This document shows positions 17,864 to 64,000 of a stretch of DNA of 64,000 nt, one piece after another. The notes under the pieces are model-generated. The model searched no databases. It was given only the letters and a program-made list of their open reading frames with translations, and had not been told where the DNA came from. This DNA is from Streptomyces clavuligerus (GTDB taxonomy: Bacteria > Actinomycetota > Actinomycetes > Streptomycetales > Streptomycetaceae), in the NCBI RefSeq assembly GCF_005519465.1, contig NZ_CP027858.1, positions 6,497,001-6,561,000 on the forward strand. The letters run 5' to 3'. Position numbers and translations under genes: made by a program. Numbering within the stretch: position 1 is the stretch's first letter; each line of letters starts with the position of its first letter.

Positions 17864-20113
<2,250 letters not shown>

Positions 20114-57148: not shown

Positions 57149-57358
57149 TCAGCCCTCCATCGCCCGGATCAGGCTCGCCGGGCGCATATCGGTCCAGTGG
57201 GTCTCGATGTACTCCAGGCAGGACTGGCGCGACCCCGGGCCGTGCGCCAGGTGCCAGCCCGCCGGCACCTCCGCGAACTCCGGCCACAGGCTGTGCTGGT
57301 TCTCGTCGTTGACCAGCACCGTGTAGACGCCGTCGGGGTCCTCGAACGGATTGCTCAC
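57149..57358 (-). CDS. MbtH-like protein
   Basis: A 69-residue protein with the complete MbtH signature: [40 protein letters not shown], and [16 protein letters not shown]. MbtH proteins bind NRPS adenylation domains and make them soluble and active. GTG 57358 has AAGGAG upstream. No NRPS gene is in the window, so this is an orphan copy that could serve a remote cluster or one beyond the right edge. Confidence 0.95.
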
Positions 57359-57527
57359 CGTGTGTCTCCTTCGTCCGCAGGGTCTGCTGGGCGCCTGTCC
57401 TCGGGGATACCGTCCGGGTGGCCGGTCCGGTCGGCCGTAGCGCGAGCATACGTCGCCGTCGACGGCGGGACGGCGCGCGGTGCCCGTTCCGGAGCCCGGC
57501 GCCGCACCGCTCCCGGAGAACCGCGCG

Positions 57528-57566
57528 GCCCGGGGCCGGTGACAGGGTGTGTCACCGGCCCCGGGC
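57528..57566. terminator. Terminator, 16-bp perfect stem, downstream of lysyl oxidase gene
   Basis: GCCCGGGGCCGGTGAC pairs with GTCACCGGCCCCGGGC around a 7-base loop. It lies 59 bases beyond the lysyl oxidase stop and separates it from the MbtH gene. Confidence 0.88.
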
Positions 57567-57624
57567 CGCTGTGGAGCCGGGCCGGGATGCATCCCGCCCC
57601 GGCCCGCCGCGAGGGAAGGGGAGG

Positions 57625-59418
57625 TCAGCCCCGGCCGCCCCCGCCGCCCGTGCCGGGACGGTGGTCGTCGACCAGACCGATCGGCGGCACGGTCACCGTG
57701 CGGGCCCCGGGCTTGCCGCCCAGAACGATCTTCCGCAGGGCGGTGTTGTTGGTGGTGCTGGTCTCCTTGAGACGGTTGGCCGGGTTGGCCTTCACCTGTA
57801 TCCAGTAGGTGCCGTTGGGCACCGTGGTGATGTCGAACGCCTGGTCCGGCAGGTCCTGGACATAGGTGTCACCGGAGCCGACGTCCAGCCGCTGCCGGAT
57901 GGAGAGCCGGGTGGGGCCGTCGCAGGCCGAGCTGAGGTCCGTGTTGCTCGGGAACCAGTTGGCGCCCTTCACGGTGTAGTCGACCGCGTCGGTGTTGGCG
58001 AGGCAGAAGGCTTCCTTGCCGCTGCGCAGGGCCTCCTTCTTGTTCTCCTTCAGCAGGCTGTAGCTGGCGAAGTCGAGGAAGTGCCAGTGGTTGTGGCCCT
58101 CGCGCGGGTCCCACTCCATCGAACCGGCGGGGGTGAAGCCGACCTGCTTCCCGTTCGCGTCGTGGAAGTACTGGTAGGCGTCCATGACGTCCTTGCCCTT
58201 GGCCCGGAAGCCGTCGACGACCAGCTCGGCCGGTCCGGCGTTCCACACATTGGCGCTGAAGGCGACGAAGTCGCGGCCGGGCTTGCCCTGGTTCTCGCCC
58301 GGCTGGATCTCGATGCCGAACGCGGGCAGCGAACGCAGGTCGGGCTTGGGGACGTCGGGGACCTTCGGCGAGCCGGTCGGCCGCTTGGCGTTGGGCTTCT
58401 CGCCGCCCGCCCGGCGGGAGCCGTCCGTCTGGCCCGGCCTGTCGCCGACGTTCGCCACGGTCCGCGCGGACTTGCGCAGCGCCCACGGCAGCGCGGGCGG
58501 GGCCGGCGGATACGGGGTGTGGCCCGTGTTGTACATGGGGCCGGTGCCGCCGGTGGCCTGTGCCAGCGTCATCGCGGGGGCCTTGCCGTGCCCGGAGTGG
58601 TCCCCGGCGCCGTCCCCGTGGCCGGAGTGACCGGCGGCGTGGTGGGGCCCGGCCGCGGAGCGCCCGACCGGACCGCCGGGCTCGGTGTCCTTGTACTCCT
58701 CCACCGTCACCTTCACGGAGTGGGAGGAGCCGGATATGCCGAACAGGTCGCGGTACTTCTTCGCGACGGTCGCCCTGGCGGTGTACGTGCCCGCCGCGAG
58801 GTCCAGCCCCTCGGTGCTGCTGTAGTAGTGGCCGGAGTAGGTGTTGGTGCCCCAGCCCTTCTCCACACCCCAGACGGAGCCCACGGTCAGCGGGTTGTCC
58901 GGGCAGCTCTGCGGGAACCGCGACTGCTGCGGGCCGTCGGGCCGCAGCCGGCCGGAGGCGTTGTTGGGGCAGAAGTTCTGGGAGTCCTTGAGCACGGTCT
59001 TGCCGGCGGCGTTCACATACGTCACCTCGATGAAGCCCGGCAGCCCCCGGAAGTCCTTGACCAGCCCGGAGGGGAGGTTCTTGACGCGCTTCGTCTTGCC
59101 CTCGTGGATGATCTGCTGGAGCACGATGGGCTTGTCGTACGAGGGCCGCTTCAACCGGAGTTCGAACGGCGAGCCCTCGGCGGCGAGGTGGAGGCCCAGG
59201 TCGGCGTTGAAGACACCGCCGGGGAAGCCCTCCTCCGCGGGGTACCGGGTCCACGTCATCTGGGGGACGGCGGCGAGCAGACTCAGCTTCGGACCGGCGG
59301 GAGCCGCCGCCCGCGCCGTGTCCTCGGGGGCCGCGGCGACCACACCGGCGGTGACCGCGAGTGCCGCGGAGGCGGCGAGCGCGGAGCGCCAGAGACGGGC
59401 GCGTGGAATTGTGTTCAT
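57625..59418 (-). CDS. Secreted lysyl oxidase family protein (copper amine oxidase type)
   Basis: A 597-residue exported protein (signal [19 protein letters not shown]). The C-terminal third is a lysyl oxidase domain: [30 protein letters not shown], the copper-binding [20 protein letters not shown] with three His, and [20 protein letters not shown]. The N-terminal half is beta-rich with two Cys. A His/Gly-rich linker ([20 protein letters not shown]) separates the halves. Lysyl oxidases use Cu and a Lys-Tyr quinone to oxidise amines; actinobacterial members such as LoxA of S. lividans are known. Role in the mycelial surface or copper handling is inferred. Confidence 0.9.
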
Positions 59419-61286: not shown

Positions 61287-61341
61287 GCGATCACCTTCCG
61301 GACGGTGTACTGGTCCACCCCTCTCACTCGATTGTGCTCCT

Positions 61342-61375
61342 TTTGCTCCGCTGATGGGATGGTTTGTTCCGCTGA
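61342..61375. repeat. 13-bp direct repeats spaced by 21 bp in the oxygenase promoter region
   Basis: TTTGCTCCGCTGA (61342-61354) and TTTGTTCCGCTGA (61363-61375) differ at one base and are exactly two helical turns apart. They lie in the divergent gap between htpX and the oxygenase gene, in a stretch much less GC-rich than its surroundings. Likely binding site of an activator or repressor. Confidence 0.65.
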
Positions 61376-61541
61376 GCGGGCGGTGGCGGGTACCCGGGCC
61401 GGGACGGGCCGGAGCCGGGGCCGGAGGGGTTGACTCCGTGACCGGACCGGTCCACCGTGACGCAGTGACCCCCCCTGTGGTCGACCCGCTCCGTGACCGA
61501 TCGTCCGCCTCTTCGACCGTCCGTCTCCCTGGAGTGATGGC

Positions 61542-62567
61542 ATGCCCGCCGACCCCGGACCGTTCCACCGGGCCCTGTCGCCCACCCCTTACACGAGCGC
61601 GGACGGCGAGACCTATCTCGCTCCGACGGCGTTGCGGGACATCGAGAAGACCCTCCCCCTGCGGGTCCTCTCCGCTGCGGACTTCGCCCACTGGCGGAGC
61701 CATGGACATGTCGTGGTCGAGGAGGCCGTGCCCCGGGCCGCCGCGCGGCGGCTGCTGGACTTCGCCTGGGAGTTCCAGGGGCTCGACCCGGACCGGCCCG
61801 ACACCTGGTACGGGGACCGCCCGTACCGTACGGACCTCGACCGCGAGCTGCACGTCCACGGCTTCGTGGAGGCGTACCACCACCAGCTCATCTGGGACAG
61901 CAGACAGACCCGGCGGGTGTACGACGCGTTCGTCGACGTGTGGGACTGCGAGGAGCTGTGGGTCACCCTGGACCGGCTGAACCTCAACCCGCCCAATGTC
62001 CGCAACCGCGACCGCGCGCTCGTCCCGCCCGGGGAGCGCGGCTTCGACATCGAGCTGCACTGGGACATCGACACCACGCTCGATGTGCTGCCCCAGCGGG
62101 TGCAGGGGATCATCGCGCTCACCGACTCCGGCCCCGAGACGGGCGGCTTCCAGTGCTCACCCGGGCTGTTCCACCGTTTCGACGACTGGCGGGCCGCCCA
62201 GCCCGCGGACCGCGACCCGGTCAGACCCGCGATCGACCGCGCGGAGTTCCCGGTGGTACGGCCCCGGCTCCGCGCCGGTGACCTGCTGATCTGGAACGGG
62301 CTGCTGGCGCACGGTGTGGCCGCCAACACCTCGCGTGACGAGGTCCGGGCGGTGCAGTACCTCGCCATGATGCCCGCGCTGGAGTCCCACACGGAGCTGC
62401 GGCGCTCCCGGGTCGCGTCCTGGCGCGCCGTCGGCACCCCGGAGTGGAACAGCACGCTCGTCGGCGACGCGGTCCGGCACGAGTCCCTGCGGTACGGCCC
62501 GGCCGCTCTGAACGGCCTGGGGGAGCGGCTGCTGGGCCTCGCGTCCTGGCGGGAACGGGCGTCCTGA
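61542..62567 (+). CDS. Phytanoyl-CoA dioxygenase-like Fe(II)/2-oxoglutarate oxygenase
   Basis: A 341-residue non-heme iron oxygenase of the PhyH family. The iron facial triad is visible as IELHWDIDTT (H-x-D) and the distal His in WNGLLAHGVAANTSRDEVR, where the Arg can bind 2-oxoglutarate. Near the start VLSAADFAHWRSHGHVVVEE is the usual family opening; GGFQCSPGLFH is the loop before the distal His. Such enzymes hydroxylate or halogenate small molecules, often in natural-product pathways. GGAG precedes ATG 61542. The next gene starts 38 bases downstream. Confidence 0.9.
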   Translation: MPADPGPFHRALSPTPYTSADGETYLAPTALRDIEKTLPLRVLSAADFAHWRSHGHVVVEEAVPRAAARRLLDFAWEFQGLDPDRPDTWYGDRPYRTDLDRELHVHGFVEAYHHQLIWDSRQTRRVYDAFVDVWDCEELWVTLDRLNLNPPNVRNRDRALVPPGERGFDIELHWDIDTTLDVLPQRVQGIIALTDSGPETGGFQCSPGLFHRFDDWRAAQPADRDPVRPAIDRAEFPVVRPRLRAGDLLIWNGLLAHGVAANTSRDEVRAVQYLAMMPALESHTELRRSRVASWRAVGTPEWNSTLVGDAVRHESLRYGPAALNGLGERLLGLASWRERAS

Positions 62568-62605
62568 CCGGCAGGACGGCAGTCCGGTACGAGGAGAGGT
62601 CCGGC

Positions 62606-63937
62606 ATGCGGAAGATCTGTCTCGCGCTCCCCACCGACCGCGAGTGCTGCGCGACCATAGCGGCCCTGGGCGAGGAGGCGGCCCGGGCCGCCGGGCGCTT
62701 CGGCGCCGAGGTGCATCTGCTGATCCTCGACTCCGCGCCGGGGGCGGCCCGCGCGGCACACGCCCGGGCCGTCGCCGCGCTGCCCGGGGCCCCCGGGGTC
62801 GTCGTCCACCATCTGGACGAGCCCCGTCAGCGGGCCTTTCTGGACGGAGTGGTCCGCCGCGCCGCCGTCACCGGCCCCGGCCGACTGCTCGATCTCATGC
62901 TGCCGGACGGCGTCTCCTACGGCGCCTGCACCAACCGGGCCTTCCTGTTCGCCGCCGCGCTCGGCTGTGTCTCGGTCCACCGCAGGGACTCGGACAGCCG
63001 CTACCAGACCTCAGGGGGCGAGCCCGTCCGACCGCTCCCCCTGGAGCTGGCCTTCCTGGGCCGACGGGCGGCTGACGCCGCCCGCGAGGTCACCGTGAAC
63101 GAGCTGGACGCGCGGGAGCTGGGGACGGACGTGATGCTGGTGGGCGGCTCCTTCGTGGGGGAGCTGTCCGTGGACGTCGGCGAGATCGCGGTACGCGACC
63201 CGGACATCTATCACGACCTCGTCTCCCTCTGGGCCCCCGCCGACTGGTCCGCCGGGCAGCGGACGGCGCTGGTGGCCGCATCCTTCAGGGGCGCGGGCCA
63301 GGAGACGTACACCGGGGACCGTACGGTGCTCACCCATGTCGACGCCCTGCACGTGGACATGTGCAATATCGCCTTCCATCACCACGTCTACGAACGGGTC
63401 CCGCTGTCCCCCGCCCGGGACACCATCGGCAGCGACTACGTCCTGATCCGCGCGGTCCACGGCGCCACCCTCCCCGGGGTCCGGCACAACCGCCACATCG
63501 TGAACTTCCATACCCCGCAGCGCAGGACCCGGGCCGGGTTCCTCGCCTATCAGATGCGGTACGTCAGATTCATCCTGTCGATGCTCTACTTCCATCCCGT
63601 CTACGACCGGATGGCCGCCGCGGGTTCCGCCCTCCTCGACGCCGGGCACCGGCTCCGGCCCGAGGCGGTGGTGGAGTTCCTCCGGGAGAGCACCCGGCAG
63701 GACACGGCGCGGAACACCGAGGCGTTGGGTGTCCTCGACCGCTCCTACCGCAGGCTGGGCGGCCGGTACGGGGAACTCGCCGACCTGGTGGCCGCGCGGG
63801 CCCCGCGGCTGCTCGCCGAGGCCCGGACGGACATCGAGGAGTACGTCCTGCTGATCGAGGGCTGGGAGGCGCTGGTGCGGGCGAGCCGGGCCGTGGGCCC
63901 GGCCACCCTGGAGGCGGTCACCAGCGGACGGCGGTGA
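62606..63937 (+). CDS. DUF6271-like protein with glycosyltransferase-type N-terminus
   Basis: A 443-residue protein. I associate the sequence with the uncharacterised actinobacterial DUF6271 family, from memory only. The N-terminal half resembles a GT-A nucleotide-sugar transferase: MRKICLALPTDRECCATIAA, SYGACTNRAFLFAAALGCVS and a DxD-like VHRRDSDSRYQ. The rest is helical with conserved-looking HVDALHVDMCNIAFHHHVYE and HTPQRRTRAGFLAYQMRYVR. GAGGAG sits nine bases before ATG 62606. It is probably cotranscribed with the oxygenase; a transferase acting in the same small-molecule pathway is the simplest reading. Confidence 0.75.
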   Translation: MRKICLALPTDRECCATIAALGEEAARAAGRFGAEVHLLILDSAPGAARAAHARAVAALPGAPGVVVHHLDEPRQRAFLDGVVRRAAVTGPGRLLDLMLPDGVSYGACTNRAFLFAAALGCVSVHRRDSDSRYQTSGGEPVRPLPLELAFLGRRAADAAREVTVNELDARELGTDVMLVGGSFVGELSVDVGEIAVRDPDIYHDLVSLWAPADWSAGQRTALVAASFRGAGQETYTGDRTVLTHVDALHVDMCNIAFHHHVYERVPLSPARDTIGSDYVLIRAVHGATLPGVRHNRHIVNFHTPQRRTRAGFLAYQMRYVRFILSMLYFHPVYDRMAAAGSALLDAGHRLRPEAVVEFLRESTRQDTARNTEALGVLDRSYRRLGGRYGELADLVAARAPRLLAEARTDIEEYVLLIEGWEALVRASRAVGPATLEAVTSGRR

Positions 63938-64000
63938 AGTCCACCGGACGGGGCCGCATCCGCTGGGCCCGCTCGGTCAGCAGCCGCAGCCTGTCGGCCA
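63918..64000 (-). CDS. C-terminal end of an opposing gene, cut by the window edge
   Basis: The minus strand is open from the right edge to a TGA at 63920-63918 and reads LRLLTERAQRMRPRPVDFTA then VRW at its end. G/C-ending codons and the plausible tail suggest a real gene. It overlaps the 3' end of the DUF6271-like gene by 20 bases. Too little is visible to name it. Confidence 0.45.
   Translation of the reverse strand, partial: ADRLRLLTERAQRMRPRPVDFTAVRW

Follow-up and report, generated by a model that had tools for sequence, protein, structure and literature searches.

A PhyH–DUF6271 gene pair of Streptomyces clavuligerus and the compact, probably DasR-controlled cassettes in which the pair recurs

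The PhyH–DUF6271 pair at the right end of the window

We analysed a stretch of 64,000 nucleotides from Streptomyces clavuligerus (GCF_005519465.1, contig NZ_CP027858.1, positions 6,497,001 to 6,561,000 of the forward strand; hereafter the window), at the right end of which a gene for a PhyH-family oxygenase is followed by a gene for a protein of Pfam family DUF6271 (Table 1). The two genes form a module that recurs in relatives in two kinds of compact cassette, and in most of these the upstream DNA holds sites that match the operator of the regulator DasR (the DasR-responsive element, dre). The window pair may well be an orphan paralogue of this conserved two-enzyme module, with both the partner genes and dre absent at its locus, and the interest lies in the cassette family to which this locus points.

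In a scan of Pfam profiles, the first protein matched PF05721 (E 6.2e-10, 40.1 bits, cut-off 22) and the second matched PF19787 (E 1.7e-213, 709.7 bits, cut-off 25), confirming the 2-oxoglutarate oxygenase and the DxD-bearing DUF6271-like protein that a first-pass annotation of the sequence had proposed. The HWD motif (from residue 173) and His 257 of PhyH were invariant in an alignment of 26 sequences, and the HWD..H pattern was found in 179 of 179 PhyH matches across 186 loci. As in other members of the family, these residues are putatively the Fe(II) facial triad, and the putative activity of the window PhyH is 2-oxoglutarate-dependent hydroxylation. The HRRDSD motif of DUF6271 (residues 125–130) was present in 184 of 185 matches across these loci, the sole exception, L178, being a fragment that begins downstream of the motif. 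The two genes share a strand and are separated by 38 bp, with GAGGAGAGG preceding the second ATG, in agreement with the two-gene arrangement described before. Both frames are full length with their motifs intact, and the DUF6271 protein is 100% identical in three other S. clavuligerus records.

The predicted DUF6271 model was of high quality (predicted local distance difference test (pLDDT) 92.3, predicted template-modelling score (pTM) 0.93), and its best matches among solved structures were enzymes of the glycosyltransferase A (GT-A) fold, which bears out the earlier suggestion of a GT-A-like protein. By fold, the predicted structure belongs with glycosyltransferase family 75 (GT75). Sequence searches against solved structures with PhyH and DUF6271, as single sequences or as profiles, returned nothing usable. 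The word DUF6271 was absent from open-licence PubMed Central papers, in which PF19787 was searched only alongside other terms.

Table 1 Features of the PhyH–DUF6271 locus (positions in the window)
Feature	Position	Strand	Remark
PhyH-family 2-oxoglutarate/Fe(II) oxygenase, 341 aa	61542..62567	+	PF05721 match; adjoins DUF6271
DUF6271 protein, 443 aa; enzyme of the GT-A fold, structural relative of GT75	62606..63937	+	
HWD, first half of putative Fe(II) facial triad	62058..62066	+	HWD..H pattern in family
His 257, distal member of putative facial triad	62310..62312	+	Invariant in 26-sequence alignment
HRRDSD, DxD-type motif of DUF6271	62978..62995	+	Invariant in 44 sequences
His 294 of DUF6271, likely equivalent of MtdL Mn ligand His287	63485..63487	+	Invariant in 44 sequences
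Intergenic region htpX–PhyH	61288..61541	.	No dre-like site of at least 10/12; most relatives have one
Two 13-bp direct repeats, 12/13 identical, 21 bp start to start	61342..61375	+	Weak significance
3' end of convergent metallo-beta-lactamase (MBL)-fold gene, runs to about 64841	63918..64000	-	Judged outside the module

Two types of cassette in relatives and a second copy in S. clavuligerus

The surroundings of DUF6271 were compared in a first set of 62 loci, comprising 57 from Streptomyces, the window copy, a record of a second S. clavuligerus copy (L040, from another strain) and three plasmids of other Streptomycetaceae. Cassette genes were assigned by reference-based tblastn; type A was defined by an acyl carrier protein (ACP) together with a condensation protein, and type B by a pyridoxal phosphate (PLP)-dependent decarboxylase. 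PhyH adjoined DUF6271 in 60 of the 62 loci, the two exceptions being DUF6271 homologues at 28–29% identity. Eighteen loci were of type A, 40 of type B and 4 of neither. All 18 type A loci also carried an amino-acid:ACP ligase, a phosphopantetheinyl transferase (PPTase) and a major facilitator superfamily (MFS) transporter. Of the 40 type B loci, 39 had a GCN5-related N-acetyltransferase (GNAT), 39 an MFS gene, 29 a glycoside hydrolase family 3 (GH3) gene, 13 a DasR-like gene and 9 all of dasA, dasB and dasC.

A later set of 56 loci, fresh with respect to the first set and to the first scan for dre but partly not with respect to a third, named set, held the pair throughout (56/56), with 16 loci of type A, 37 of type B and 3 of neither, GH3 in 31 and DasR in 15. 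The named set of 68 loci overlaps both other samples (for example L137 with G084 and L139 with G448) and is therefore not independent; it contained 63 pairs, 64 type B loci and 4 of neither type, and it reaches Kitasatospora, Actinokineospora, Kibdelosporangium, Actinospica and Ruminiclostridium. Two of its five loci without PhyH begin inside DUF6271. The genome search, in which the best 8 candidates per genome were scored, gave 66 DUF6271 matches, of which 7 were left out (G163, G102, G020, G031, G132 and two pieces in G073). The co-occurrence of the two genes, which the first-pass annotation had proposed to check, is thus borne out by all three sets. An Rfam scan of four relatives (L042, L079, L054 and L064) gave no match. 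In the type B locus L190, a type A amino-acid:ACP ligase (86% identical) lies about 6 kb upstream of DUF6271, and this locus possibly holds both cassette types side by side.

With scoring limited to the best 4 candidates per genome, DUF6271 was found at E 1e-100 or better in 118 of 392 Streptomyces genomes, so that about 30% of sampled Streptomyces carry it, and the loci examined are mostly compact, transporter-linked cassettes. Within the same limit, only the S. clavuligerus genome had two such matches. The second is a paralogous pair on contig 2, a 1.8-Mb replicon, whose PhyH and DUF6271 are 74% and 59% identical to the window copies. There, PPTase, ACP and amino-acid:ACP ligase lie on one strand, and PhyH, DUF6271, condensation protein and MFS lie on the other. 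These genes are 100% identical to annotated ones of another S. clavuligerus strain (F1D18 record), where a split transketolase follows the cassette. The transketolase was found in only 1 of 18 type A loci and was therefore rejected as a core part.

In a DUF6271 tree, which leaves out L100, type A formed one group (support 100/100). The window copy fell among type B, near the das-linked copies, with weak support (82/27) and on a long branch (0.53). Beside the window pair itself there are no partner genes that would place it in either type. In three S. clavuligerus records the window gene is not chromosomal but is carried by replicons of 182 to 278 kb; a translocation of the right chromosome arm has been reported (PMC5702194), to which this location may relate.

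Predicted DasR sites and the flanks of the window pair

A dre-like site was defined as a 12-mer upstream of PhyH matching the core TGGTCTAGACCA at 10/12 or better; this core was used in the first scans and afterwards confirmed from a published source (PMC4398421). Within 400 bp, 37 of 58 loci had a site, where 40 rounds of first-order Markov sequences gave 0.4 on average; within 1.5 kb the figure was 47 of 58 (18/18 type A, 29/40 type B). Of the remaining 11 type B loci, 5 are downstream of dasABC and 1 is downstream of dasR. Within 800 bp, sites were found in 43 of 57 loci of the first sample and 44 of 56 of the later set, where the reversed core matched 0/56, and 800 bp of PhyH coding DNA gave none in either sample. 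In the named set, 53 of 68 loci had a site within 1.5 kb. Judged by eye, the commonest type B core is TGGTCTAGTCCA; in an electrophoretic mobility shift assay (EMSA), DasR is reported to have bound this core in front of scr5239 of S. coelicolor (PMC4398421). The type A sites of 34 loci showed 14 distinct spacings (70 to 114 bp) with a period near 10.8 bp, and the periodicity score was reached by 1 of 5000 random sets; as the loci share ancestry and the period was found by scanning, this is only suggestive. A likely DasR orthologue (74%) is encoded in the S. clavuligerus genome. Judging by the predicted sites, the cassettes are probably under DasR control. A literature search for DasR combined with PhyH or decarboxylase terms returned nothing relevant.

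The two S. clavuligerus copies differ in this respect. The contig 2 copy has a single dre-like site about 230 bp upstream, whereas the window copy has no 12-mer matching at 10/12 or better within 1.5 kb upstream. The 13-bp direct repeats noted earlier in front of the window pair do exist, with units at 61342–61354 and 61363–61375. As evidence they are weak: a comparable repeat pair arose 5 times when the intergenic region was put through 300 dinucleotide shuffles, and 50 of 251 same-length tiles of the window hold one. They are also not common to homologous clusters, the 13-mer occurring among the loci compared in only four, all copies of this S. clavuligerus region.

The gene that had been seen converging from the right edge encodes a protein of the MBL fold that matches Fer4_13 close to the N-terminus; the gene ends at 63918, overlapping the end of DUF6271 by 20 bp. 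The annotated 12 kb to the right of DUF6271 contain this gene, genes for an N-acetyltransferase, an AEC transporter, a CGNR zinc-finger protein and a helix-turn-helix regulator, and further an S8 peptidase, a P450 with ferredoxin and a second regulator. No cassette partner was found among these annotated genes, nor is htpX, the left neighbour of the pair, one; the N-acetyltransferase matched neither the type B GNAT nor, at 0.01, any Pfam family. Homologues of the MBL gene were found in 37 of 199 Streptomyces genomes, its own included (36 others). Seventeen other genomes hold both an MBL homologue and DUF6271, on one contig in 5 and on different contigs in 12, in which closeness is possible. 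None of the 17 has the two on one contig less than 90 kb apart; the closest pair is separated by about 98 kb (G019), and the MBL gene was therefore rejected as a partner of the module.

Elsewhere in the window, an annotated MbtH-family gene and a lysyl-oxidase-family gene (57149–59418, minus strand) lie a few kb from a siderophore ABC transporter, by coordinates carried over from the annotated record L041. The open frame at 17864–20038 (minus strand) has a start that looks similar to that of a two-domain terpene (geosmin-type) synthase.

Proposed pathway, alternatives and comparison with known systems

In type A, the ligase of the S. clavuligerus cassette is NF005479-like, with Bll0957 as its nearest solved relative (E 3.4e-23); the ACP has DSM or DSI in 34/34 sequences, the PPTase was assigned by family, and the condensation protein belongs to PF00668 and keeps the His and Asp of the xHxxxD motif in 34/34. 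For the type A MFS protein, the highest scores, below cut-off, are to efflux and antiporter families and to TIGR00900. The closest solved relatives of the type B decarboxylase are lysine/ornithine decarboxylases, and its best NCBIfam match, below cut-off, is diaminopimelate decarboxylase; either suggests an amino-acid carboxylate in the intermediate. In the locus of Ruminiclostridium cellobioparum (L160, 2871–7899), an anaerobe, DUF6271, decarboxylase and MFS genes are followed by a radical S-adenosylmethionine (radical-SAM) gene, and no PhyH was found in the stretch examined. This arrangement, seen in a single locus, fits a role of PhyH in C-H oxidation.

On these grounds the cassettes quite plausibly make and export a modified amino-acid product under DasR regulation, with the window pair as an orphan copy. 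PhyH would oxidise an unactivated C-H of an amino-acid-like precursor, and DUF6271, as a metal-dependent GT-A enzyme, would move a sugar from a nucleoside diphosphate (NDP)-sugar onto it. In type B, the lysine/ornithine-decarboxylase-like enzyme would then remove the carboxylate and the GNAT would acylate the amine. In type A, the amino-acid:ACP ligase would load an amino acid on the ACP, and the free-standing condensation protein would join it to the product. The MFS protein would export the product, and repression by DasR would be relieved when N-acetylglucosamine (GlcNAc) or chitin is abundant. The window copy, having neither partners nor dre, may work in trans, may be under other control or may be on its way out. 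If the link to DasR is real, GlcNAc is a simple predicted inducer, and the product is therefore directly testable by growth with and without GlcNAc; a role could then also be assigned to a Pfam family that so far has none.

Several points weigh against this reading. PhyH is not obligatory, as L126, L160 and the clostridial L177 are without it, and the two DUF6271 homologues at 28–29% identity stand alone. Neither is the decarboxylase: in L118, L126, L213 and L218 the GNAT directly follows DUF6271 with no decarboxylase, and L127 carries its decarboxylase elsewhere. The condensation motif is atypical, the first His being absent in 34/34 and the Gly in 14/34, and the NCBIfam match of the decarboxylase differs from its solved relatives. 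The structure prediction for PhyH had a pLDDT of 31.6 and was discarded. As for regulation, 5 of the 40 type B loci lack both a site within 1.5 kb and neighbouring das genes, and in type B it may be the divergent GH3 gene, not PhyH, that the site controls. In the first-sample controls (n=57) the reversed core matched 1 locus and permuted cores 5, 1 and 0, while one permuted core matched 3/56 in the later set. In the S. clavuligerus genome the core (at most 1 mismatch) occurred at 20 places against 22 for the reversed control, and the single contig 2 site therefore counts only through its position.

The chief competing explanation of the window locus is decay: the pair would be what remains of a type B cassette and would now be functionless. 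We regard this as possible, with less weight than an orphan copy. It accords with the lack of decarboxylase, condensation protein, type B GNAT or MFS gene beside the pair, with the lack of a dre-like site, with the absence of a close type B decarboxylase elsewhere in the S. clavuligerus genome (best 33% identity), and with the long branch near the das-linked type B copies, itself of weak support; the intact, full-length frames and the identical protein in the three other records speak against decay. A further idea, put forward in the first-pass annotation, is that the pair marks the left edge of a larger cluster running past 64000. Although the pair looks biosynthetic and there is a P450 with ferredoxin some 10 kb rightward, the lack of cassette partners in the annotated 12 kb and the distance of the MBL gene from DUF6271 in the 17 genomes holding both (on different contigs in 12) make this highly improbable. 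No continuation of a pathway to the right is visible in the annotated 12 kb, whereas the biosynthetic part of that interpretation survives in the relatives, where the pair sits in biosynthetic-looking cassettes that the window locus itself lacks. The pair never co-occurring elsewhere, together with a housekeeping right flank, had been named as grounds for giving up the idea, and the outcome fell half each way. The observation is confirmed and its first interpretation partly supported.

Two other explanations concern the function of the cassettes. They could be catabolic, serving DasR-controlled use of a GlcNAc-containing conjugate with the MFS protein as importer, given that the core DasR regulon is mostly devoted to amino-sugar use (PMC4398421) and that a GH3 hexosaminidase-like gene lies near 29/40 type B loci, after dasABC in several. 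The ACP, PPTase, ligase and condensation protein of the 18 type A loci are anabolic, however, and the type A MFS scores best, if below cut-off, against efflux and antiporter families, so that we think catabolism improbable. Only slightly better placed, and still unlikely, is the proposal that DUF6271 acts as a pyranose/furanose mutase on NDP-sugars, as do MtdL, Hyg20 and the plant UAM proteins, and supplies a furanosyl donor instead of transferring sugar to a small acceptor. The fold would allow it, and His 294, from its order along the chain, is likely the equivalent of MtdL His287. According to PMC9937993, however, MtdL requires its catalytic Arg159, which lies between DxD and His; the only invariant arginines of DUF6271 in 44 sequences are 126, 127 and 306, with none between DxD and His 294. 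In addition, the genes that recur in the cassettes showed no further glycosyltransferase.

A broader and more speculative proposal can be added, which we consider less likely than not: DUF6271 might found a GT-A family with a free amino-acid-like acceptor in place of the autoglycosylated arginine of GT75, and might drive the formation of widespread, chitin-responsive, hydroxylated glycosyl-amino-acid metabolites, the oxygen-dependent PhyH appearing to be replaced by a radical-SAM enzyme in the anaerobic clostridium. A glycosyl-amino-acid class without large core enzymes would presumably be easily overlooked.

Among known systems, the GT75 enzymes MtdL, Hyg20 and plant UAM/RGP resemble DUF6271 in fold and share about 13% sequence identity with it. 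Homology to GT75 by sequence was rejected: a Pfam scan of DUF6271 at E up to 1 gave PF19787 alone, with no match to the RGP profile PF03214, and hhalign against two RGP-family proteins gave a probability of 1.3%. Carriers of PF03214 numbered 0 of 297 Streptomycetaceae genomes and 2 of 396 genomes of the phylum, the source of the two proteins aligned. The collagen-modifying enzymes LH3 and COLGALT1 likewise pair a 2-oxoglutarate hydroxylase with a GT-A transferase, acting on proteins; their chains are among the weak Foldseek matches of DUF6271 (E 0.013 or worse), and the likeness is one of analogy. In the type A cassette of S. clavuligerus, the gene beside the ACP encodes a homologue of the amino acid--[acyl-carrier-protein] ligase Bll0957 (PRK07080), but its 105.6 bits against an NCBIfam cut-off of 357 make it a divergent relative. 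The cassettes share with the DasR regulon upstream sites matching the dre core, including the EMSA-tested TGGTCTAGTCCA (PMC4398421), binding at the cassettes being predicted. A more distant parallel is the plasmid locus of Apilactobacillus kunkeei (L045, 3198–13596), which encodes a distant DUF6271 (PF19787, 2.1e-27). Unlike the cassettes, it has no PhyH match in 20.6 kb and instead carries two genes annotated as D-Ala-D-Ala ligase, an aminotransferase and a methyltransferase. Like type A, it has a ligase-like gene scoring 90 bits (below cut-off), a gene with weak likeness to ACP (E 0.002) and an MFS gene whose best NCBIfam subfamily, TIGR00900, is shared with the type A MFS (both below cut-off), and it has a split transketolase, as does the F1D18 record of the S. 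clavuligerus cassette.

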